A DNA stretch of 64,000 bases from Gemmatimonadaceae bacterium (GTDB lineage Bacteria > Gemmatimonadota > Gemmatimonadetes > Gemmatimonadales > Gemmatimonadaceae), in the NCBI GenBank assembly GCA_016742275.1, contig JACVCD010000009.1, forward strand, positions 1-64,000. Direction: 5' to 3'. Below, piece after piece: positions 1 to 13,300 of the stretch. The notes below the pieces were generated by a model that searched no databases, was not told the origin of the DNA, and was given only the letters and a program-made list of their open reading frames with translations. Numbering within the stretch: position 1 is the stretch's first letter; each line of letters starts with the position of its first letter. The position numbers and the translations under genes were made by a program.

Positions 1-735
1 GCCTTGCACCGGTGTGACCTGTGGACTGGCAGCGAGCAGTGCGGTTGTTGCGGCGAGTATGGCATCGCTCACAGCATGCGCATCCCATGGTCGCACATCG
101 AGTGTCGCACATCGTGCGCGCGCTTCGGCGATGGTCATGCCGGCGCGTATACCGAACCGTCCAGCGGCCAGCGAAACCACTTTAAGTGTGGTGTCGATAC
201 TGAGTGCGCGTGGGACGGTGTCCCAGTGTCGCAACTCAGGCGGACGTAGGGCGCGGTTTTCGCCCGAACGTGGACTCTGCCGCGCGCCGCCGCCCGCGGT
301 ACGTGGTCCAGTCGCGGACACCACTTTGCTCCCGCCGTTCGATGCGGTGTTCGCTCCAGCGATCGAGGCCGCCGCTGATGCAGTTGGGGACTCTGCTACT
401 CGTCTGCTCCGCGCGGTCGCGGTCGCGGTTGATGCTGCGATCGGCGTTGGGCGCGTGACGGTCGGATAGCGGGAGCGTGATCCTGTCGCCGGGCTCGGTG
501 TCGAGTCGGGCAGCAATTCGAGCTGGATGTCCCGGAATGTTAGTTCCGTACAAGTCGTGGCCGGCGACTCCAAGTCCGCCCCAGGTGACGGGATGTTCTC
601 CGGTGTCTTGGGTGTGTGGTTGCTGGTCGGTGCTGTTTCCGCGCGCGACCCAGGCACGACGCGCGCTTCGCGCCACGCCGCGCCGATCGGGAATCTCGGA
701 ATTCGCACACATGCGACGCGCCATGACGATGACAC
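1..735 (-). CDS. imuB: ImuB, Y-family polymerase-like mutagenesis protein (N-terminal part, runs off the window)
   Basis: Read on the minus strand from a GTG at 735. The first strand (RVACVRIPRFPIG) and the later block with SLAAGRFGIRAGMTIAEARARC match the ImuB N-terminus, where Y-family polymerases have their palm and fingers. ImuB has lost polymerase catalytic residues and works with ImuA and the error-prone polymerase DnaE2 in damage-induced mutagenesis. Between the two blocks lie about 140 residues rich in Ser, Thr, Pro, Ala and Gly, which the family normally lacks. The GTG lies where the conserved part of ImuA ends, and the two genes overlap by about 500 bases in different frames. An in-frame ATG at 813 is a possible earlier start. 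No stop occurs before base 1. Identity is fairly sure; the exact start is not. Confidence 0.72.
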   Translation of the reverse strand, partial: MSSSWRVACVRIPRFPIGAAWREARVVPGSRAETAPTSNHTPKTPENIPSPGADLESPATTCTELTFRDIQLELLPDSTPSPATGSRSRYPTVTRPTPIAASTATATARSRRVAESPTASAAASIAGANTASNGGSKVVSATGPRTAGGGARQSPRSGENRALRPPELRHWDTVPRALSIDTTLKVVSLAAGRFGIRAGMTIAEARARCATLDVRPWDAHAVSDAILAATTALLAASPQVTPVQG

Positions 736-1414
736 GGTCCACCTCGATGGTCTGATGAGGAATGCCGGTGCCGCCCTTCTCGACGGTGATCCGGATGCGA
801 GGAGAAGTCGCATGGGTTGTCGCTACGCGCAGGCGCAACGTGCCGGCCAGACGACCGCGCCCCGTGTTGGTGCCGGTATGAACGAGGCCATGTTCGAGTA
901 CCACGCAGGCCGCATCCCGCTCGCGAGCCAACTGTGCGAGTCGCACACCATGCACACGCGAGAGCGCAGGGGCGCCATCGAGCACCACGAGCCCGAACAC
1001 CCCACTGCGCAGCAACAGATCGGCGGTCCACGCCGCGCGATGCCGTTTCTCGTGCGGCAGGCGAATGACCACCAATCGTGAGCCCATGCCGGTGAGGGCG
1101 GCCGGTGCCAACGTACGCGAGGCATCGATCCAGGCCACCCAACTGCCGGTGCGCAGCACCGCTTCGGCCACTCGTCGCAGCAATGCGGTTTTGCCCACGG
1201 CCAGCGCACCGGTGATCTCAGTGACCCGACCACGCGGAATGCCACCACTCAGGGCTTTGTCGAGCGCCCGGATACCGGTGGCCCAGGGCGCACTTGCTGC
1301 CCGGCCTCCTGCCACCACCGCCTGCACCTTGGCCACCACAGCAGCCGGTACCGGGGCCGGTGCGCGATGGGTCGAGGTGAAAGACGGAGTGGAGGAGGCC
1401 GGAAGTGCGCTCAT
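236..1414 (-). CDS. imuA: ImuA, RecA-like SOS mutagenesis protein with long out-of-frame overlap
   Basis: A RecA-fold ATPase relative with a P-loop-like GALAVGKT at about residues 69-76, after the family lead-in GIRALDKALSGGIPRGRVTEI. ImuA recruits ImuB and DnaE2 to stalled replication. ATG at 1414 is chosen. It lies inside the predicted -10 box, so the real start may be downstream, for example a GTG near residue 26. The RecA-like part ends near base 735. The frame then stays open for about 166 Arg/Ser-rich residues that overlap imuB and look non-native. At 392 residues it is longer than usual for the family (roughly 230-280). Either a true long overlap or an indel near 735-780 could explain this. 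The next gene upstream on the same strand is a radical SAM gene sharing the same operator. Confidence 0.72.
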   Translation of the reverse strand: MSALPASSTPSFTSTHRAPAPVPAAVVAKVQAVVAGGRAASAPWATGIRALDKALSGGIPRGRVTEITGALAVGKTALLRRVAEAVLRTGSWVAWIDASRTLAPAALTGMGSRLVVIRLPHEKRHRAAWTADLLLRSGVFGLVVLDGAPALSRVHGVRLAQLARERDAACVVLEHGLVHTGTNTGRGRLAGTLRLRVATTHATSPRIRITVEKGGTGIPHQTIEVDRVIVMARRMCANSEIPDRRGVARSARRAWVARGNSTDQQPHTQDTGEHPVTWGGLGVAGHDLYGTNIPGHPARIAARLDTEPGDRITLPLSDRHAPNADRSINRDRDRAEQTSSRVPNCISGGLDRWSEHRIERREQSGVRDWTTYRGRRRAAESTFGRKPRPTSA

Positions 1415-2934: not shown

Positions 2935-3276
2935 CTATACAGCGAACATGGCCTGCAGAATGCCGAGGACTTTCGTCATGGTCGCACTGGTGAGTGCTCC
3001 CAATCGCTTGCCGAGTCGTTCGTCATCAACGGTGCGAATCTGGTCAAGGATGACATGCCCGTCCTTGCCTCCAAAGCGACACGCCACGCGAAACGGGTAC
3101 GGATGACTGCCACTCGTCAGGGGGGCGACGATAAACGTGCCCATATGAGTATTCAGCTCATCTGGTGATACAACAACACAAGGTCTCGTCTTGCGGATTT
3201 CGCGTCCGCGCGTCGGATTCAGGGTGACAAGGAATACATCCCCCCGTCGGACTGTCGCGCTACTCACCACGTCCAT
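2935..3276 (-). CDS. mazF: MazF/PemK-family toxin (endoribonuclease)
   Basis: A 113-residue protein with MazF hallmarks: RRGDVFLVTLNPTRGREIRKTRPCVVVS at the N-terminus, then FIVAPLTSG and DQIRTVD in the second half. MazF toxins cleave mRNA or tRNA at short sequences when freed from the antitoxin. The start overlaps the end of the upstream antitoxin gene by 13 bases, the usual translational coupling of a type II toxin-antitoxin operon. The key Arg of the RP dipeptide and the downstream Asp-Gln are present, so it looks intact. Confidence 0.92.
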   Translation of the reverse strand: MDVVSSATVRRGDVFLVTLNPTRGREIRKTRPCVVVSPDELNTHMGTFIVAPLTSGSHPYPFRVACRFGGKDGHVILDQIRTVDDERLGKRLGALTSATMTKVLGILQAMFAV

Positions 3277-3649: not shown

Positions 3650-4456
3650 TCAGCGCCCGCGCCGCAACGTCACGCTCCCATTGACCGTGCTGGCGCGCAC
3701 ACGGGTGCGGCCATCACCGACAGTGCCACGCAGTTTGCGCGGGGACAGCGTGCCCGACACGGTGATTGGGAAGTCCGTCGTGACACGACCATTCACCGTA
3801 GAGAGTTCGAGTTCGGCGCCAAAATTGGACGGCAGTTCGAGGGTGATGGCGCCATTCACGGTTTCGTACTCGAGATCATCGGCGCGGCCGAGTGAACCCA
3901 TGGCCACATCAATGCTGCCGTTGACGGTGTGTGCTCGTACTGGACCCCCGGCACTGCGGGCGGTAATGCTGCCGTTCACTGTGCGGGCTTCCACTTCGGT
4001 GGTCACGTCGCGCACTTCGATACCGCCATTCACGGTCACGAGGGCCACGCGCACACCTTCCGGCACGCGCACCACGAAACGCACCGATACATCGTTGTTG
4101 CGATTGTTGTTGCGAGAATTGCGCTCGGAGCGAATGCCGCGCTCTTCGCAGGTGGAGCCCGGAGTCCACAGGGCGCAGATCACGACATCATCGCCGAATG
4201 ACTTCTGCTCGATGCGCACATCATCCGGGTCACCGCGGCGCCAGCGCTTTTCACCGGTGACTTCCACGCGGCTGCCGCTGCTGCGGGTCACTTCGATGCC
4301 GCCGTTGATGTTGTGAATGCGGATGGTGTTCCCGCTCGGGATGCGTCCCGACCAGGAGAAAGCATCATCGCGACGTGATTCCTGCGCCCCCGCAGCGGGG
4401 GCAATGGTTGTGGCCACGACGAGCGCGGACACAGACAGCATGAGGCGAACAGACAT
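3650..4456 (-). CDS. DUF4097 family beta-strand repeat protein, secreted
   Basis: A 268-residue protein with a signal peptide (MSVRLMLSVSALVVATTIAPAAGA). The rest repeats short beta strands with TVNG motifs (for example VNGGIEV, VNGSITA, VNGSIDV, VNGAITL), which should form a right-handed beta-helix-like solenoid typical of DUF4097 putative adhesins. It is the last gene of the operon that starts with the ECF sigma factor at 6883, 62 bases after its paralogue. The products probably act in the periplasm or at the envelope. The biochemical role of DUF4097 is not known. Confidence 0.8.
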   Translation of the reverse strand: MSVRLMLSVSALVVATTIAPAAGAQESRRDDAFSWSGRIPSGNTIRIHNINGGIEVTRSSGSRVEVTGEKRWRRGDPDDVRIEQKSFGDDVVICALWTPGSTCEERGIRSERNSRNNNRNNDVSVRFVVRVPEGVRVALVTVNGGIEVRDVTTEVEARTVNGSITARSAGGPVRAHTVNGSIDVAMGSLGRADDLEYETVNGAITLELPSNFGAELELSTVNGRVTTDFPITVSGTLSPRKLRGTVGDGRTRVRASTVNGSVTLRRGR

Positions 4457-4518
4457 GAGTGACTCCCGAACCAGGGATGACGATGTTGATGAATGCGAGA
4501 AAGGAATTCGGCGTCGGC

Positions 4519-5451
4519 TCAGCGCTGTGGAGTGCGCACGAGGCGGATGTTGCCGTTGAAGGTAGAGATTTCGAGCTGCATGGGACCGCCATTGCCCAAC
4601 TGATAACGGCGGCTGTTACGCCCAGCGCGCGACCGGTTCACGTCGCCGGGAAGCATGGTGAGTGGTGTAGCGGTATTGATGGTGCCGTTGAACGTGGAGA
4701 CTTCCATCATGCCGTGCGCTTCGTCGGGCAGGCGAAGGGTCACGTTGCCCGAATGCGCCGTAATGCGTACGCGGGCTTCGCGATCGAGCAATCCATCCAT
4801 GCCCACGTTGCCGCTGATGGATTCGACGGTGAGACGAGTGATCTGTTCGCCGCTGATGGAGACATCACCACTGGTGGTGTGCACTTCCAGTTCTCCACGC
4901 ATCTCACGCAGCCGCAGGTCACCGCTTACGGTGGTGGCACGCAAGCCAGCCGTTCGTCCGGTCACCGAGATGTCTCCCGTCATGCTTTCGACGTTGAGGC
5001 GGCCGCTCACACCTTCGAATCGCAGTGTACCGGATGCCGTGCGCACATCCACGCTGCCACTCATGTCACGCACTTCGACATCGCCCGACAACGAGCGCAC
5101 TACGAGCCGTGCGCCACGAGGCACATCCACTTCGAGCAGATCACTGTCACGGCTGGACGACTGTCGCTCGCTGCTGCGATCGCTGCTTTCGCGCGGCTGC
5201 ACGGACATGGTGGTGCCAGTCGTGCGCAGTTCATAGCTCCGATGATCACCGCGAACGGTGCCACTGTTTCCGTCGACACCACGCACCAGCAAGCGGCCGC
5301 CACGCAGCGAGATATCCACGACGGCGTTACTCGACACACGCACCGACGTGTCGTTCTGTGCTGTCAGTGTGCGGGGGAGCGCACCAACACTGCCCAAGGC
5401 CATGGCGCAGACGATCATGCGGGCCGCCTGACGGATGCGTGAACTGCTCAC
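4519..5451 (-). CDS. DUF4097 family beta-strand repeat protein, secreted (second copy)
   Basis: A 310-residue paralogue of its downstream neighbour. The N-terminus has a hydrophobic signal (ARMIVCAMALGSVGALPRTLTA). Repeats of the type VSGDLRL, TSGDVSI, ISGNVGM, HSGNVTL and FNGTINT run through the body; here SG turns replace many of the NG turns of the neighbour. A Ser/Arg-rich linker (SSDRSSERQSSSRDS) lies near residue 90. Its GTG start overlaps the anti-sigma stop by four bases, so the two are translationally coupled. Function unknown; the operon suggests an envelope role under control of the sigma factor. Confidence 0.8.
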   Translation of the reverse strand: MSSSRIRQAARMIVCAMALGSVGALPRTLTAQNDTSVRVSSNAVVDISLRGGRLLVRGVDGNSGTVRGDHRSYELRTTGTTMSVQPRESSDRSSERQSSSRDSDLLEVDVPRGARLVVRSLSGDVEVRDMSGSVDVRTASGTLRFEGVSGRLNVESMTGDISVTGRTAGLRATTVSGDLRLREMRGELEVHTTSGDVSISGEQITRLTVESISGNVGMDGLLDREARVRITAHSGNVTLRLPDEAHGMMEVSTFNGTINTATPLTMLPGDVNRSRAGRNSRRYQLGNGGPMQLEISTFNGNIRLVRTPQR

Positions 5452-6302
5452 AGCAGGGCCACTCGACGCATGAGTTGCAGCTTGGCTTCAAGCGCGCGAT
5501 CGAGCTGTGTGGACAGCAGCGCACTGCGTGGATCCCGTGCGAGCGCCGCCTTGCTGTCGGAGATCGCGCGATCGATGATGTCGAGATTGCGCCGCAGTTC
5601 GTTCACCGTGGAGGTGTCGAGTTCTGCGAAACGTTCATCCACGATATTGCGCAGGCCGCGAATTTCGCGTTCGTAGGTCGCGTCCACATCGGGCAGATCG
5701 TCGTCGACCACCAGACGTGTATTGGACGTGCCCGTAGTACGCGATGTGGCAGGCGTGATGGAGTCGGTGTTGCTGGCCACCACAGTGCTCGGCGCACGCG
5801 ACGTATCGGTGAGTGAGTCCGTCGATGGCTGCACAGCCACATTGCTTTCATCAACCATCGGACGCGATGAGCCCGACGGACGGGTGAGCTGCCACGTGAC
5901 ACCCGAGCTCACCGCCACGAGCAGCGTGGCGGCGATGGCCAGGGTGCGGATACCGAAGGTGCGGGTCGATGGCGTCTTCGCCGTCGATGTAGCAACTGGT
6001 GCCGCAATTAGCGGCGCGGCCGCGATGCCACGTCCAATCGGGATGACCTGTGCTTCGAGTCGCGATTCGATATCGGCCCAGAGATCCCGCGAAGGCGCGA
6101 TGGGCGGCAGCGCCGCAGCATCGCTCACCAACTGTTCCAGATCGGCCACGAGGGCGGCGCACATGGGACAGCTGTCCCGATGGGCGGTCATCCACTCGTT
6201 GGTGTTCCCATCGGTGTCCCGCTCAAGCCACGGACCGAGCGTCGCTTCGAAGCGCACGCAATCGTCGGTGGTGTGGGGAGATGGATTTGGCATGGTGCTC
6301 AT
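5448..6302 (-). CDS. Membrane-anchored anti-sigma factor
   Basis: A 284-residue protein. The N-terminal HRDSCPMCAALVADLEQL (about residues 41-58) is a zinc-finger anti-sigma (ZAS) HxxxCxxC motif. A single transmembrane segment follows near residues 127-145 (IRTLAIAATLLVAVSSGVTW). The Ser/Thr-rich periplasmic part ends in a helical domain. It should hold the ECF sigma factor inactive until an envelope signal arrives. It starts 17 bases after the sigma gene and overlaps the first DUF4097 gene by four bases, so the DUF4097 proteins are likely part of the signalled response or sensor. Confidence 0.85.
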   Translation of the reverse strand: MSTMPNPSPHTTDDCVRFEATLGPWLERDTDGNTNEWMTAHRDSCPMCAALVADLEQLVSDAAALPPIAPSRDLWADIESRLEAQVIPIGRGIAAAPLIAAPVATSTAKTPSTRTFGIRTLAIAATLLVAVSSGVTWQLTRPSGSSRPMVDESNVAVQPSTDSLTDTSRAPSTVVASNTDSITPATSRTTGTSNTRLVVDDDLPDVDATYEREIRGLRNIVDERFAELDTSTVNELRRNLDIIDRAISDSKAALARDPRSALLSTQLDRALEAKLQLMRRVALL

Positions 6303-6319
6303 GGAAGTGCCTGTGCGGT

Positions 6320-6883
6320 CTAACGGGTCAACGCGGTCCGCAGGAGCATGCGGGCGCGGTGCAACTGGGCCTTGCTGCCACCCGGCGTGATGCCGAGTTG
6401 GTCGCCGATCTCTTCGTGTGTGAAGCCTTGGACATCGTGCAACACGAACACCATGCGAGCCCCCTTGGGGAGTCCGGCGATGGCTCCTTCGAGATCCATC
6501 CGATCACCCACGGCTTCGTGGCGACCGGCGGCATCATCGAGGGCGTCGTCGTCTGCGTGCCGCGCATTGTGAATGCCGCTGGTCTTGCGCCGCGACAGGA
6601 TCACATTGACGGCCACCCGATGGAGCCAGGTGCTGAACGCCGATTCCCCCCGGAATCCGGGCAATTTCTGCCAGACCCGCACGAAGACGTCCTGAACGAC
6701 TTCTTCGGCGAGCACCCGATCCCCCAGCATGCGAACGCAGAGGGCAAAGACCCGATCCACGTGGGCGCGATAGACACGCTCGAACGCCCGCCGGTCGCCG
6801 CTGGCAGCGGCGGCCACGTCGTCACGTCCCGGACCAGGGGGCAGGACGATGGCTGCGGTGTTTTCGAGTGAATGATCGGTCAC
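6320..6883 (-). CDS. ECF RNA polymerase sigma factor (RpoE-like)
   Basis: A 187-residue sigma-70 factor of the ECF type. Region 2 is seen in FERVYRAHVDRVFALCVRMLGDRVLAEEVVQDVFVRVWQKL (about 35-75), and region 4 in GARMVFVLHDVQGFTHEEIGDQLGITPGGSKAQLHRARMLLR (about 140-182). The start is a GTG at 6883; no nearby ATG fits. It heads a four-gene operon with its anti-sigma factor and two DUF4097 proteins, and probably drives its own promoter, though I could not pick a clear -35/-10 pair. Confidence 0.9.
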   Translation of the reverse strand: MTDHSLENTAAIVLPPGPGRDDVAAAASGDRRAFERVYRAHVDRVFALCVRMLGDRVLAEEVVQDVFVRVWQKLPGFRGESAFSTWLHRVAVNVILSRRKTSGIHNARHADDDALDDAAGRHEAVGDRMDLEGAIAGLPKGARMVFVLHDVQGFTHEEIGDQLGITPGGSKAQLHRARMLLRTALTR

Positions 6884-6967: not shown

Positions 6968-7618
6968 TCAGACGGGCAATTGGGCAATGATGTTGGGCAA
7001 TTGGTCGAACCGGGTCATCCAGAAGGTGGGGGCTGCCGGTTCCAGTTCGTCACGGCGGAAGGGGCCCCAGAGAGCGGCGGCGGTGCGAACGCCGGCGGCC
7101 CGACCGGCATGCATGTCGTGGGGTGAGTCACCCACGAAGATGGCGCGATCCGGCGTGGCACCGAGTCGTTCGAGGGCCAGGAAGACCGGATCGGGGAGCG
7201 GCTTGTGGCGCGAGGTTTCCTCGAAGGTGACGATGGCATCGAAGGCCTGTGCCAGTCCCACATGCTCGAGGGAACGGCTGGTCATGCCCTTGCCCTTGCT
7301 GGTCACGATGGCGGTGGGGTGCCCCTGAGTCCTGGCCCACGCGAGTGTCTCGATCACACCAGGGAATGGCGTGGTAAGGCGCTCCAAGTGGAGGTCCTGA
7401 TAGTCACGATACTTCGTGACCAGAGCCTCGACTTCTTCATCGCCAGCGCACCATTCAGCCAGCTGCGTCCGAAGTGGTGTGCCAATGCCCGCCACCCACT
7501 GCGCCGTCGTGGGCCGCGGCACGCGGTCGGTAAACGCAAACTCCATGCATTCGAGCAGGAGGCCGATGGAGTCGATGAGGGTGCCGTCGAGATCGAAGAG
7601 CAGGGCGTGTCGCGTCAT
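6968..7618 (-). CDS. HAD-family phosphatase (phosphoglycolate-phosphatase-like), coupled to the helicase gene
   Basis: A 216-residue haloacid dehalogenase-fold hydrolase. Motif I is LLFDLDGTLIDS with the nucleophile Asp near residue 8, motif II is the ...IVTSK stretch, and motif III/IV is KPLPDP...IFVGDSPHDMHAG. The four-helix cap region sits between motifs I and II. ATG at 7618 is chosen: it forms an ATGA overlap with the stop of the helicase gene, so it is translationally coupled to the methyltransferase-helicase operon. Such enzymes remove phosphate from small molecules; the substrate here is unknown. It could be an ordinary metabolic enzyme or a member of the defence-like operon. Confidence 0.85.
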   Translation of the reverse strand: MTRHALLFDLDGTLIDSIGLLLECMEFAFTDRVPRPTTAQWVAGIGTPLRTQLAEWCAGDEEVEALVTKYRDYQDLHLERLTTPFPGVIETLAWARTQGHPTAIVTSKGKGMTSRSLEHVGLAQAFDAIVTFEETSRHKPLPDPVFLALERLGATPDRAIFVGDSPHDMHAGRAAGVRTAAALWGPFRRDELEPAAPTFWMTRFDQLPNIIAQLPV

Positions 7619-10026
7619 GCTGAAGGATAATCGGATGCCGACTTGGGATATCCGATCAGCAGGGCCGCCAGCGATGGTCCTGGCGCAGACAATAAGAAAT
7701 GGTCGGATGGTGGGCTGGGCTCGGCATGTGTATTCAACGCGGGCTCGCGTTGCCACGTGGTGATCCATTCTGTGAGGTCCGCATCGGATGATTCTGGAAA
7801 AGAGCGCAGCCATCGTTGATTTGCCGCGTCCGCTGCCGCTCCCTGTGCACTGCGCGCGCGATATCGTGCTGCTGCGATGAGCGCCCCGTACTGCGCGCGC
7901 TTGATAGTGCTCCACTGGCGATGGCACTGGTCGAGTCGGCGGAGCAACTGCTGTGTCACAAGAGGGAGTTGTTCAGGCCCCGGACCGGTGAGCATTCGAA
8001 TGCGTGCGCGGTTGATCCAGCGATCAACGATGCGCTCGATTCCTCGTGCATCGTCGAGCGCGCGGACTTCGGAGATCCCATCCTTCGGGGTATCGACATC
8101 GGATTCTGCCTCCAGCCGTTTCGCCACTTGCGACAGCACTCGACTTCGCTGCGAAACGCGCCATCCCGTTCTCGTGCGGACTATGGCCAGCAATGACGAG
8201 GTCCCGTCCATTTCAGTTCCAGTTACGAGCGCGAGCGCTACGAGTGTTGGCGTTGATCTCATTCGCAGAATGGCAAACGGAATACGTGGTGCTCGTGTAA
8301 ACGATGCGGATGATGAGTCGGGTTCTGACCGTGCATCCCAGCGCTGGAGTCGTGCCAGGAGCGCTGTTCGCCAATCAGCGGCACTTCGATGGTGCGCTCG
8401 ATGTATGTCAGCTCCGATCAACTCTACACCAAGATGACGTTTTGCAATGATCCGCTGTTCTGCACGAAGTGCGTCGGCCACTCTGGAGTTCGGTCGGAGT
8501 CGATACACGTGCACGTTGGAGTGCAACGATCCAATGCGGGCAACGCGCCCCACACGCTGAACACGCAGTGCGTTGGTCCATGGCAAATCCAGGTGAACGA
8601 CAACGCCAGCGTCCTGGAGGTTCACACCTTCAGCAAGCAGGTCGGTGGTGAGCAGGAGTCTCACACGCATGTGATCGGGCGGTGGCGGACGACCGGAAGC
8701 GCGCGGTGCAAACAGCGCAAGAAGTTCCTCACGAGGCAGTGGTCCACTGGCGATGCAAGCTCGACGCCCCGAGATCGATCCGATGCCAGCGATATCGGAC
8801 AGTGCACGAAACAGCGCATTGATGGTGTGCGTGTATTGGGAAAACGCGACGATGGGCACATTGTGGTGTTCTTCAAGCAGTGCACGGAGGTGTCCGGCGC
8901 GCACGGGGTCACCCTCCGCGCTTCTGGCGTGGTGGCGAGCGAGTTCACCGACGGCGTCCAGGTGCTTCTGCAAGACCTCGATGAGTGGGCCAGACTCCGT
9001 GGTGTGTGATACCAGCAGTTCCGGAAATGCCAACTGCCCAGCGTCGTCGCCGACGACCCAGTGGCGGAGTTCCTCTCGCGTCGGATGGCGGCCCTCGCGC
9101 AAGGCATCGTGCAGTGCTTCTCCCCGAAGCCGACGCTTGGTGAGCGCCAGTGTGAGCTCGGCGTCGCTGGAGCACCACGCACGCAATAGGCCAAGACGGA
9201 TGAGCGCACCGGCCACGGCGCCGTCATGAGCAGGAAGTGGTGCGGGCAGTGCAAGGATACGAGAGAGTGTCTCTCGATCCTGGGGAATGGAGAGCGGAGG
9301 ATGTGTAAGAATGGTCGGCGTGACTGCACCTGGTCGCTGATCATCCTGCGTGCTCGACTGCTCATTCAGGTCGTGCTGGCGTCGTCGCACGATTAATTGC
9401 GAGAGCACGTGTTGCGCGATGTTGTCTTCGCGATCCCCGCGAAAGAGGCTGATGATTGCATGAAGATCGCGAGGGCGGTTGTGAATTGGCGTGGCCGACA
9501 AAAGTAAGACATCGCAATCCACCAGTGCTTCAGCGATGCGCCGGTATCGCTGGGTCGCGGGATTCCGCAGATGGTGCGCTTCGTCGATGATCACGAGCGC
9601 AGGCTTGCCAATCACCAATGTAGGAGGAATGGAAGTCGACCAGGTGTGCATCGAGTGGCATTGTGCGTGCGCCATGCCTGCATGTGAGCAGGCCGTGCGC
9701 CACATAGGCAGCAGTGCGGCCGGAGCGATGACTTGCACCGATTGGTACTGACGTGCGACACCGAGTGCGACGTAGGTCTTGCCCATCCCGACTTCATCTG
9801 CAAGCAGGGCACCACGATGGTCGGCAATGATTCGGGTGATGCGGGAGACCGCGTCGCGCTGATGCGGCAGCAGCGTGATGTCGCCGAGCCCGGCACTCGA
9901 GGACGAAGGCAATACGGCTCTTGCCATCATCCCTCGTACGTGATCTGCGGATATGCGCCGATATCGCGTGGCATGTTCAGTGTGGTCACGGACACGGTTC
10001 GATTCAACGAGCTTTGGCGGACGCAT
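7615..10026 (-). CDS. SNF2/DEAH-type helicase of a methyltransferase-helicase module
   Basis: An 803-residue superfamily 2 helicase. Motif I is DEVGMGKT (77-84), motif II DEAH (148-151), motif III SATP (177-180), motif V TTDLLAEGVNLQDA (460-473) and motif VI QRVGRVARIGS (490-500). The LLPHQRDAV Q-motif region precedes them. This order matches SNF2-like translocases such as DrmD of DISARM. No nuclease motif is evident in the roughly 290-residue C-terminal part. Its start overlaps the methyltransferase end by 23 bases; its stop overlaps the HAD gene by four. It most likely moves along DNA to detect or remodel unmodified invading DNA. Function is inferred from family and context. Confidence 0.8.
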   Translation of the reverse strand: MRPPKLVESNRVRDHTEHATRYRRISADHVRGMMARAVLPSSSSAGLGDITLLPHQRDAVSRITRIIADHRGALLADEVGMGKTYVALGVARQYQSVQVIAPAALLPMWRTACSHAGMAHAQCHSMHTWSTSIPPTLVIGKPALVIIDEAHHLRNPATQRYRRIAEALVDCDVLLLSATPIHNRPRDLHAIISLFRGDREDNIAQHVLSQLIVRRRQHDLNEQSSTQDDQRPGAVTPTILTHPPLSIPQDRETLSRILALPAPLPAHDGAVAGALIRLGLLRAWCSSDAELTLALTKRRLRGEALHDALREGRHPTREELRHWVVGDDAGQLAFPELLVSHTTESGPLIEVLQKHLDAVGELARHHARSAEGDPVRAGHLRALLEEHHNVPIVAFSQYTHTINALFRALSDIAGIGSISGRRACIASGPLPREELLALFAPRASGRPPPPDHMRVRLLLTTDLLAEGVNLQDAGVVVHLDLPWTNALRVQRVGRVARIGSLHSNVHVYRLRPNSRVADALRAEQRIIAKRHLGVELIGADIHRAHHRSAADWRTALLARLQRWDARSEPDSSSASFTRAPRIPFAILRMRSTPTLVALALVTGTEMDGTSSLLAIVRTRTGWRVSQRSRVLSQVAKRLEAESDVDTPKDGISEVRALDDARGIERIVDRWINRARIRMLTGPGPEQLPLVTQQLLRRLDQCHRQWSTIKRAQYGALIAAARYRARSAQGAAADAANQRWLRSFPESSDADLTEWITTWQREPALNTHAEPSPPSDHFLLSAPGPSLAALLIGYPKSASDYPSA

Positions 10027-13000
10027 GTCGATACCAGGCGATCAAGGGTGAGAGCACGGAGAGTGAAAGCCCAAAGCACTGTGCGACTGCAGCATCGAGG
10101 AGCGGTGCAGGGACGGGGTCACCAAGGGCGAGCCGGCGGCCGATTGGAGCGAGAAGACAGACCGCGCGCGGCCAGTCAGCCGGCGTTGGCAGGGAACTCA
10201 CGGTCCAGCCGAGGAATCGTCTGAATCCGCCGCGCGCCGGTTCGGCGATGGCGTCAAGCCAGGCAGCAGCAATGGTGGAACTCAGTAGGGCTTGTGCTGC
10301 AAAGGCGTCATCGATGGTCGAGAGTCGGAGCACATAGCACGTGTTGAGCGGGATCGTTGGGTCGTGTGCAGGCAGGACGCGCACGTGCAATGTTCTGCCG
10401 ATGTCCGCCCATACCAATCGTGGCAGATCGTTGCGGGCGGCTTCGGTGCGGAAAAGAGTCCACCAGGGTTGCTTGGCGCGTGCATCGCGGCGGGTTTGCA
10501 ATCGGGATCGCCATTGAGCGAGCCAGCGTGTCGTGGCCGGTGGTAGAGCCTTGAGTGGCAATCCATTGGTGTCGTGTGTCCAGATGATGCGGACATGTTG
10601 TTCATCCCTTTCATCAGGCGCGGGGAATGCTGTTCGCGACTCTCTGTCGTTGCGGGTACGGGATAGGGACTCACCTCGCAGGGCGGGACGGAGCATGGTG
10701 CGCTCAACCACTCCCTGCATAGGCATCGATGCCGCGAGTGAGGTGATGGTGGCTCCGGCATCCTGGTGTTCAATGGCATGCACCAGGAACGCCGCATTGC
10801 AGCCGCACTTTACGCCGAGTGTTGGGCGGCCGAGCGCAGAGGTCGCGAGTGAGGGGCCTGCGTGTCGTAGCGCATCAAATGCGGCGCGTGCGGCAGGTGG
10901 TAGCAGAATCCACGGAGCGGCCGGGTCGTCTGGCTCGAGAGTGAGCGAGTGTGCGGGAATTGCAAAGTGTTCCGTCTTTCTTCGTACGACGGTACAGTGG
11001 ACTTGCGGAGATATATGCGACGAATCATTTCGGGCACTGCGTGGTGAACGCCGCTGAGCGACAAGCAATGAGGGATAGGTTGCCGCATCGAACTGTGCGG
11101 GAGCGTCGCTCCAATCGTGCACAGCGCGGATGTGCGTTTCATGGTGGAGGAAGCTCCGGATGCCTCCGCCAGCGAGTGTTCGCCACAGCTTTGACGGAAC
11201 GAGAAGGGAGAGCGTTCCGCCCGGTGCCAGCAGCTGCACCGCGCGTTCGACAAATGCGACCGCCAGATCCGCCTGCGCGGCAAATCCTGTCCCGGCACCG
11301 GCGCGTGTGGCCCCGGCGTGCCACGCAGCGCGACGCATGGTGCGGAACTCGGTACGTAGCCATTCGCGCTCCGTGGCGACCATGGCATGCGGTCGCACCC
11401 ATGGGGGATTACCGATGAGCAGGTCAAAGCCACCGGTCGCCGCGATATCGGCGAACATGCTGGCAAACCGAAACGGGAGTGCGCCGCCCGCGCGCAGGCG
11501 ATTGCGCTGCGACTGCAGATCTCGTGAGTGCTGGCGCAGTTGCTCCAGCCGGGCCGTGTCGGCGCGAGCGGGTTTACGGCGATTGCCGAAGAGATCTCGT
11601 CCTCGCAGGGCGGTAAGGAGCAGTCGACGTTCCCTGCGCAGCGCATCGAGGCGCCGGGCGTGTTCGGCGAGCGCGCGCTGACGTTCTTCATGATCGAGCG
11701 TTTGCGCAACGGTGTGCTTGCGGCGACCCGTGGAACGCGCGTATCGCTCGCGAAGACGGGAAAGGTGCGCTGAGCCCGGTGGCGCGAACTGCAGGGTGCC
11801 GCCCGTCAGTGCATCGCCGACGCGGATGTGATGATCGAGATTGGGCAGCGGCGAGATGCTGTCAATGTCTTGCGTGTTGTATTCAATGACGACCGAGAGC
11901 CAGAGACGGAGCTCGCAGAGCCATACCGCCATTGGTTGCTTGTCTACGCCAAAGATGCAGCGGGTGAGAATTGACCGGCGCCTGAGATGTGCAGGGCGAT
12001 CATCACCGGCGATGGCGCAACGCGCGTCGAGTTCCTCCAGCGTGTGAACGAGAAACGCACCCGAGCCACAGGCGGGGTCAAGGATACGAAGCCGTTCGAT
12101 TTGTGCGACGGATGGTTGATCGCTGCAGGATGCGAACGCCGACGCGAGTGCGGCATCGACGGCATGGGCAACCAGGTGCGGCGGTGTGTAAAAGCTGCCG
12201 GAACGTCGGCGTTCATCGTCGGCCATGAGGCCTTCGAAGGCGCGACCGAGCATTTCCGGATCTACGGCGGCTTCAGACCATGCGTGAGAATCTTCGCGGG
12301 CGGTGAATCGATAGCGATCGAGTAGGCCGCCTATCAATGACGTGAGCGCATCGTCACCGAAATCCAGGCGGTGCGCGCGTCGTTCAAGTGGTGTTGGAGT
12401 AAAGAGCCCGCCGTTCAGGAATGGGATGGCGCCGAATCGACGCGCATCGGGTGCGCGCTGCGCACGTGGCGTGTTCAGTGTCCCGAAGAAGAGTGGGCGC
12501 AGTGTTCGCGTATGAATGCGCCCGCCGCGTTCGAGGGCCTGAATCGCGTGTCGGAGCAGAAACTCTCGTTCACCATTCATCCAGCCTTTCGCTTCAAGGA
12601 ACGACAGGAAAAGGCACCGTGATGCGCAGAGGAGGGCGAGTTCACGTCGTTCCCTGGATGACAGGGTGATGAGGGCCTGTCTACCAGTGGAGGGCGCGTG
12701 CAGTGAGTCGGCCAGGGCGCTGACGCGTTGCTCAAGTTCGCGATAGAAGCGACTGGACAATGCATCACGCCCGAGGATATCGGCAAAGCGGGCGTGTCTT
12801 GTGAGTGCGTCCGACTCTGTGACCGCGCTTAGGGCGCGCATGGTGTCCGCGTCGGAGTCGAGGACACGGTGTCGTTCAACACGGAGTGCGGTCAGTCGTG
12901 TTCCCCGAGCATGCGGGGCGGCTACGGCTATGCAGAGCGTATTGCGCGATTGATCGAGCAGGCAGAGGCACCAAAGCCTGGTTGGTGCCTGGCGTAGCAG

Positions 13001-13300
13001 CGCGGTCCCAATGCGATGCGCCTGCTGCCTAATGTCGCCGGTGTCCGAAAGCGTGCCGGGTGCGGCGAGCGTTGCGCAGAACAGCGTGAGACCACCTGGC
13101 GCTGAGGCGAGCGCGGCGGCATCGCAGGAGACCGGAACGCCAATATCGCGTTGAGAGGATGGCGGGAGCGGAAGTGGTTGGGCTGGAAAACCCAAGGCAC
13201 TGGCGATGGAGTGCATCGCTTCGACCGAGTCGGTGCGAGCGAGGAGTTGGGCGGCGGCGCGGAGAGTGAGCACGGCGCCATGATGCGGTGGGGCGGCCAA
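10004..13300 (-). CDS. Eco57I-type N6-adenine DNA methyltransferase (large, DrmMI/PglX-like)
   Basis: A 1098-residue class I DNA methyltransferase. SAM-binding motif I is DPACGSGAFLVHTLEEL (about 408-424) and the catalytic motif IV is NPPW (about 631-634), so the target is adenine N6. The preceding FEGLMADDERRRSGSFYTPPHLV (about 365-387) is typical of Eco57I/PglX-like enzymes. The N-terminal 200 residues match no nuclease motif I can see. Motif VIII and a target-recognition region should lie in the C-terminal 400 residues. The start is uncertain: TTG at 13300 or GTG near 13273. It is the first gene of the operon with the helicase and HAD phosphatase. Possible role: marking self DNA for a restriction-like system. 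Confidence 0.82.
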   Translation of the reverse strand: MAAPPHHGAVLTLRAAAQLLARTDSVEAMHSIASALGFPAQPLPLPPSSQRDIGVPVSCDAAALASAPGGLTLFCATLAAPGTLSDTGDIRQQAHRIGTALLRQAPTRLWCLCLLDQSRNTLCIAVAAPHARGTRLTALRVERHRVLDSDADTMRALSAVTESDALTRHARFADILGRDALSSRFYRELEQRVSALADSLHAPSTGRQALITLSSRERRELALLCASRCLFLSFLEAKGWMNGEREFLLRHAIQALERGGRIHTRTLRPLFFGTLNTPRAQRAPDARRFGAIPFLNGGLFTPTPLERRAHRLDFGDDALTSLIGGLLDRYRFTAREDSHAWSEAAVDPEMLGRAFEGLMADDERRRSGSFYTPPHLVAHAVDAALASAFASCSDQPSVAQIERLRILDPACGSGAFLVHTLEELDARCAIAGDDRPAHLRRRSILTRCIFGVDKQPMAVWLCELRLWLSVVIEYNTQDIDSISPLPNLDHHIRVGDALTGGTLQFAPPGSAHLSRLRERYARSTGRRKHTVAQTLDHEERQRALAEHARRLDALRRERRLLLTALRGRDLFGNRRKPARADTARLEQLRQHSRDLQSQRNRLRAGGALPFRFASMFADIAATGGFDLLIGNPPWVRPHAMVATEREWLRTEFRTMRRAAWHAGATRAGAGTGFAAQADLAVAFVERAVQLLAPGGTLSLLVPSKLWRTLAGGGIRSFLHHETHIRAVHDWSDAPAQFDAATYPSLLVAQRRSPRSARNDSSHISPQVHCTVVRRKTEHFAIPAHSLTLEPDDPAAPWILLPPAARAAFDALRHAGPSLATSALGRPTLGVKCGCNAAFLVHAIEHQDAGATITSLAASMPMQGVVERTMLRPALRGESLSRTRNDRESRTAFPAPDERDEQHVRIIWTHDTNGLPLKALPPATTRWLAQWRSRLQTRRDARAKQPWWTLFRTEAARNDLPRLVWADIGRTLHVRVLPAHDPTIPLNTCYVLRLSTIDDAFAAQALLSSTIAAAWLDAIAEPARGGFRRFLGWTVSSLPTPADWPRAVCLLAPIGRRLALGDPVPAPLLDAAVAQCFGLSLSVLSPLIAWYRHASAKAR

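Follow-up and report, generated by a model that had tools for sequence, protein, structure and literature searches.

The methyltransferase and SNF2 genes that lie side by side in the window (the whole 64,000-nucleotide stretch of Gemmatimonadaceae DNA analysed here) belong to a locus conserved throughout the order Gemmatimonadales. From sequence and predicted structure we propose, with a probability of roughly 0.6, that they form a domesticated module: a vertically inherited, chromosomally fixed m6A methyltransferase together with an SNF2 translocase free of nuclease. As a rule, conserved orphan methyltransferases are encoded by a small gene that stands alone. Here an orphan-type methyltransferase is found order-wide and linked to an SNF2 translocase, a combination familiar elsewhere from restriction and from anti-phage systems. 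If the proposal is true, a machine of the restriction type would seem able to lose its nuclease and become a fixed core cellular function. A literature search found no paper on this pair.

The genes of the locus and the predicted parts of their products are listed in Table 1. A first-pass annotation had described three genes overlapping by 23 and 4 bases, and the open reading frames are all present in this arrangement, the SNF2 and methyltransferase genes sharing 23 bp and the HAD and SNF2 genes 4 bp (ATGA). It had also given the methyltransferase as an NPPW protein of 1098 residues with a TTG or GTG start. The TTG does yield this length; since the methyltransferases of relatives begin at a conserved 'VLTLRAAA' in the alignment, the true start is likely the GTG at 13273, for a protein of about 1089 aa. 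Pfam finds Eco57I (1.2e-22) and N6_Mtase in the first protein, SNF2-rel_dom and Helicase_C in the second and HAD_2 (2.3e-40) in the third, which, with the motifs, agrees with the earlier identification of an 803-residue DEAH SNF2 protein and a HAD phosphatase. The SNF2 protein opens straight with the motor and has no nuclease domain ahead of it. A sigma-70 promoter scan gave no match at the locus, and the sigma-70 model may not fit the promoters of this phylum.

Table 1. Genes of the locus in the window, and predicted domains and motifs of the two larger proteins (residue numbers)
Feature	Position	Strand	Description
Methyltransferase gene	10004-13300	minus	Eco57I/gamma-class N6-adenine DNA methyltransferase, 1098 aa from TTG
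SNF2 gene	7615-10026	minus	SNF2-family DNA translocase, 803 aa
HAD gene	6968-7618	minus	HAD_2 family phosphatase, 216 aa
Methyltransferase, N-terminal alpha/beta domain	residues about 13-160		approximate
Methyltransferase, helical domain	residues 165-345		approximate
Methyltransferase, catalytic domain	residues 408-414; 631-634		motif I DPACGSG; motif IV NPPW
Methyltransferase, long coiled-coil insert	residues 510-603		approximate
Methyltransferase, C-terminal target-recognition region	residues about 800-1090		approximate
SNF2 motifs	residues 80-84; 148-151; 490-497		GMGKT; DEAH; QR..R

By its distribution, the methyltransferase-SNF2 pair is a core locus of the Gemmatimonadales. The methyltransferase is present in 94 and the SNF2 protein in 93 of 100 relatives, whose genomes are partly incomplete MAGs in which single absences may be assembly gaps. 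In a phylum-wide sample the methyltransferase was found in 158 of the 172 genomes of the order, and a further nine genomes of the class that lie beyond the order carry it at E < 1e-200. The two genes are side by side, usually overlapping, not only order-wide but also in the closest relatives from the Myxococcales, the Acidobacteriota and the proteobacteria. The SNF2 gene nearly always adjoins the methyltransferase gene, with gaps of -77 to +40 bp in nearly all measured loci, and the two are separate genes in every locus examined. The search for homologous gene sets in other genomes that the first-pass annotation had suggested thus recovers the pair throughout the order, with the HAD gene as an inconstant member. 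Within the genus and in a large part of the family the pair is flanked on one side by genes for gamma-glutamyltranspeptidase, NUDIX, rhodanese, LD-carboxypeptidase (LdcA) and aminotransferase proteins and on the other by ECF sigma, anti-sigma and DUF4097 genes. In the window, positions 3650-6883 hold an ECF sigma factor, a probable anti-sigma factor and two DUF4097-like proteins, an order kept beside the pair family-wide; a PemK/MazF-like toxin gene (PF02452) is found at 2935-3276. In a tree of 57 methyltransferases with SH-aLRT support, Gemmatimonas and the families f1, f2 and f3 are clades (support 99-100), outside which the Myxococcales, Acidobacteriota, proteobacterial and Kutchimonas sequences fall. 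The tree follows taxonomy and, as judged from it, the locus is vertically inherited.

The three genes had been read as a candidate defence operon. As a conserved unit the methyltransferase and SNF2 genes stand, but our results speak against mobile defence. The distribution is not sporadic, the location does not vary and the neighbours are not defence genes. PADLOC found no defence family among the ten flanking proteins, the NUDIX protein giving a marginal 24.9-bit match to a candidate family, and hence no defence-island pattern; scans with PADLOC and Pfam also bear out the earlier remark that DrmA, DrmB, DrmC and a nuclease are missing from these ten. No homologue of either protein occurs among 72,556 plasmids and none of the methyltransferase among 50,697 phage records. 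The main alternative, possible though we consider it unlikely, is that the pair is a core-fixed anti-phage system, in which the methyltransferase would mark self DNA and the SNF2 motor act on unmarked phage DNA. SNF2 would then block replication or recruit a nuclease encoded elsewhere, the system being BREX-like or a split, nuclease-free counterpart of Type ISP. That the locus is core, syntenic and vertical, with no defence neighbours, argues against this reading. Loss in small genomes argues for it: the nine f1 genomes that lack the pair are smaller (median 2.4 vs 3.8 Mb, p = 3e-4). The pair, being more commonly absent from small genomes, is therefore dispensable, as defence systems are, and this also tells against domestication.

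Distant homology of the methyltransferase to DrmMI, PglX and IIG enzymes, and of the helicase to DrmD, DpdE, BrxH and ZorD, is likewise consistent with an anti-phage role. In PADLOC/NCBIfam both proteins score weakly and below threshold, the methyltransferase with models of IIG, DrmMI and PglX and the SNF2 protein with those of DpdE, DrmD and BrxH. Class 1 DISARM also places a methyltransferase beside an SNF2 helicase, and there is distant HMM similarity to both (DrmMI 104 bits, DrmD 63-85 bits). However, the SNF2 protein falls far short of the curated DrmD equivalog cut-offs (84.9 vs 610 bits, 57.9 vs 950), and DrmA, DrmB and DrmC, which class 1 DISARM has, were not found by PADLOC among the ten flanking proteins; the pair is core and not part of an island. 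The likeness to DrmMI and DrmD suggested in the first-pass annotation thus stands as distant relatedness, and membership of DISARM was rejected. Membership of BREX was also rejected: the methyltransferase reaches 17.7-41.3 bits with PglX/BrxX models against cut-offs of 400-900, and PADLOC and Pfam find no PglZ, BrxC or PglY, nor DUF499, in the ten flanking proteins. BREX-related (BR) systems, defined by a DUF499 ATPase and a DUF1156-type methyltransferase, share with the pair the theme of an N6-methyltransferase joined by a Swi2/Snf2 helicase (PMC12839542). Pfam finds neither DUF499 nor DUF1156 in the three genes or the ten flanking proteins, and this assignment was dropped as well.

The structure model of the methyltransferase (pLDDT 91, pTM 0.90) has CamA as its best solved match (Z 29.3, 3.0 A, 512 residues), followed by M.BseCI (Z 26.6), BrxX (25.4), LlaGI of Type ISP (24.0), MmeI (23.3) and LlaBIII (23.1), and Foldseek agrees. 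The comparison with PglX by structure prediction, proposed earlier, yields a match to BrxX that ranks below CamA and M.BseCI. The SNF2 model (pLDDT 83) matches SNF2 motors in general, ZorD (Z 17.6) among them. The matches to BrxX, LlaGI and ZorD would suit an anti-phage system. The Type ISP enzymes LlaGI and LlaBIII also join an SF2 motor to a gamma-class methyltransferase with a recognition domain, but as a single polypeptide with a nuclease, whereas here motor and methyltransferase have a gene each and no match to a nuclease family was found. By conservation and modelled fold the closest known kind appears to be the core orphan methyltransferases such as CamA of Clostridioides difficile, which has the gamma-class m6A methyltransferase fold and a C-terminal recognition region in common with the window protein. 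As with CamA, Dam and CcrM, conservation here is taxon-wide and vertical, and no cognate restriction endonuclease is linked. CamA is conserved within C. difficile (PMC8407109), a single species, whereas conservation here spans a whole order. The window methyltransferase also differs from CamA in being about twice as long, with an extra N-terminal domain, helical domain and coiled-coil insert, and from CamA, Dam and CcrM in its permanent pairing with an SNF2 translocase.

The nearest outside relatives of both proteins are pairs of a methyltransferase and an HKD-SNF2 protein, usually encoded close together, in cyanobacteria, Sulfurovum, Methanoculleus and Chloroflexota (L131-L151). These SNF2 proteins are about 1000-1170 aa long, with an N-terminal HKD-type domain and the Walker A motif at residue 258-288. 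The motif is at residue 80 in the window SNF2 and at 64-74 in its close relatives, so the core lineage is without the HKD-type domain. In the tree of 57 sequences the methyltransferases of the HKD-SNF2 kind lie past a long branch. Searches for nuclease families found none in the three genes or the ten flanking proteins, the N-terminal domain of the methyltransferase having been searched only within the whole protein. Residues 1-150 are scarcely covered by fold matches, and the domain may conceivably hold a cryptic or degenerate nuclease fold. For an anti-phage role, the result on nucleases in the pair and its ten neighbours is unfavourable and the scatter of HKD-SNF2 relatives over many phyla favourable. 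An HKD-SNF2 gene adjoins that of a large IIG-like methyltransferase in L137, L140, L143, L150 and L151 and lies near it in L131, L145 and L146; in L131 a gene for an OLD/AriA-like ATPase stands between the two. In HKD-SNF2 loci of many phyla the neighbouring genes that were inspected included none of DISARM, and we regard the IIG-like methyltransferase and HKD-SNF2 pairs as a candidate restriction system.

The locus, which the first-pass annotation thought might be a relic, is under purifying selection. DPACGSG, NPPW, GxGK, DEAH and QR..R show no or almost no variation in the alignments of relatives, and dN/dS in the pairs tested is 0.15-0.27 for the methyltransferase and 0.15-0.34 for SNF2; on both grounds it is not a relic. 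Mean identity within the genus is 43% for SNF2, 60% for the methyltransferase and 72% for HAD. The divergence of SNF2 lies mostly in the C-terminal 250 residues (in the window gene at 7615-8376, residues 551-803 show 7-29% identity between Gemmatimonas species and the motor core mostly 48-77%). Such fast evolution also fits an immune protein and counts to that extent against domestication. Specificity switching is usual in restriction-modification. Here, the ratio of recognition-region to catalytic identity is 0.90 in the core family (820 pairs) and 0.70 among 17 HKD-SNF2-type relatives, in which the recognition regions, unlike those of the core pair, are diversified. At a catalytic identity of 0.6-0.7 the mean recognition-region identity is 0.62 in the core family (59 pairs) and 0.35 in the HKD-SNF2 kind (5 pairs). 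The conserved recognition region therefore points to a constant target rather than to specificity switching, and it weighs against an anti-phage function.

Relatives elsewhere pair a similar methyltransferase with an SNF2 protein bearing an N-terminal HKD (phospholipase-D-type) nuclease; in a domesticated module of this kind the core lineage, which is without that nuclease, would have kept modification and translocation. The methyltransferase would bind and methylate a conserved DNA target. The SNF2 motor, translated from a shared mRNA, would move along double-stranded DNA and might clear bound proteins so that the methyltransferase reaches or maintains its sites. Alternatively, SNF2 might begin to translocate when the methyltransferase reads out unmodified sites. 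The expected result would be marking or maintenance of the genome, not cleavage. As a more specific form, which we offer only very tentatively, SNF2 could be needed to place or maintain an m6A mark, conserved throughout the order, on DNA that proteins cover, a logic comparable to that of DDM1/HELLS with DNA methylation in eukaryotes.

Gemmatirosa kalamazoonensis (G045), in which SNF2 is lost, provides a natural control without the partner. Its methyltransferase keeps the motifs intact, no SNF2 gene adjoins it and no full-length SNF2 match was found elsewhere in the genome. The locus L070 (6877-10089) represents the only well-assembled genome found with the methyltransferase but no SNF2 gene; there the end of the methyltransferase and the sigma factor match are separated by about 150 bp, SNF2 and HAD having disappeared. 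The Gemmatirosa genome encodes an MT-A70 methyltransferase, a complete MmeI-type enzyme and HsdM. The Gemmatirosa methylome has three m6A motifs, RGATCY, ATGCAC and CCAGN7TCA (PMC3974934), which can be assigned to these three enzymes by class. The assignment is made by elimination and draws in part on the habit of MmeI-type enzymes of methylating the penultimate A in asymmetric sites. We had considered RGATCY, with its Dam-like GATC core, for the core methyltransferase and dropped it because of the MT-A70 enzyme and because a characterised RGATCY methyltransferase, whose class we infer, is also small (24.4 kDa; PMC10734518). ATGCAC was dropped likewise, the complete MmeI-type enzyme taking this motif. 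The core methyltransferase is therefore left without a motif in Gemmatirosa, a result confounded by the loss of SNF2. This suggests that the enzyme needs SNF2, is silent or has another substrate. For the domesticated module the result is awkward: it fits dependence on SNF2, but equally an unexpressed methyltransferase or a different substrate. If SNF2 acts as a remodeller on which methylation depends, its loss would explain the missing mark. We find it highly doubtful that the methyltransferase acts on RNA, single-stranded DNA or unusual DNA structures instead of bulk chromosomal DNA, SNF2 serving as remodeller and no methylome motif being left. A copy that keeps its catalytic motifs while no m6A motif is left unassigned would agree with this, but the result is confounded as stated, and the recognition region resembles those of M.BseCI and CamA, both of which have structures in complex with double-stranded DNA. 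Single-family searches with PF01555, PF02086 and PF05869 gave no match in five genomes. In G028, probably G. phototrophica, no other adenine methyltransferase was found in the six Pfam families searched, and because no other of a common family is apparent, a G. phototrophica methylome would read out the enzyme directly. In Gemmatirosa the MmeI-type enzyme is followed by overlapping genes for two proteins, one DEAD-box helicase-like (689 aa) and one of T5orf172/MUG113 type (GIY-YIG-like, 399 aa), a methyltransferase-helicase-nuclease row of its own (L176:4935-10952).

The HAD phosphatase is probably a co-transcribed housekeeping gene and no obligate part of the pair. It adjoins SNF2 in each of the seven loci examined in and near the genus and, where contigs are intact, in most f2 and f3 loci; in some of them the two genes overlap by 4 bp. 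Such adjacency would agree with the earlier suggestion of a three-gene operon in which HAD is the working effector, removing nucleotides or phosphate. We now think this extremely unlikely. Orthologues (E 1e-48 to 1e-57) occur in genomes without the pair (G070, G086, G090, G097), none was found in several pair-bearing genomes (G031, G035, G037, G044, G059, G066), and in family f1 the gene is upstream of the methyltransferase in two loci and unlinked in seven loci read. The best models are PpaX and phosphoglycolate phosphatase (Gph), both below equivalog cut-offs, and HAD may be an operon passenger of the phosphoglycolate/pyrophosphatase type. Directly downstream of SNF2 in the pair of a rumen proteobacterium there is a UPF0102 (YraN-type) gene (L122:7762-8268).
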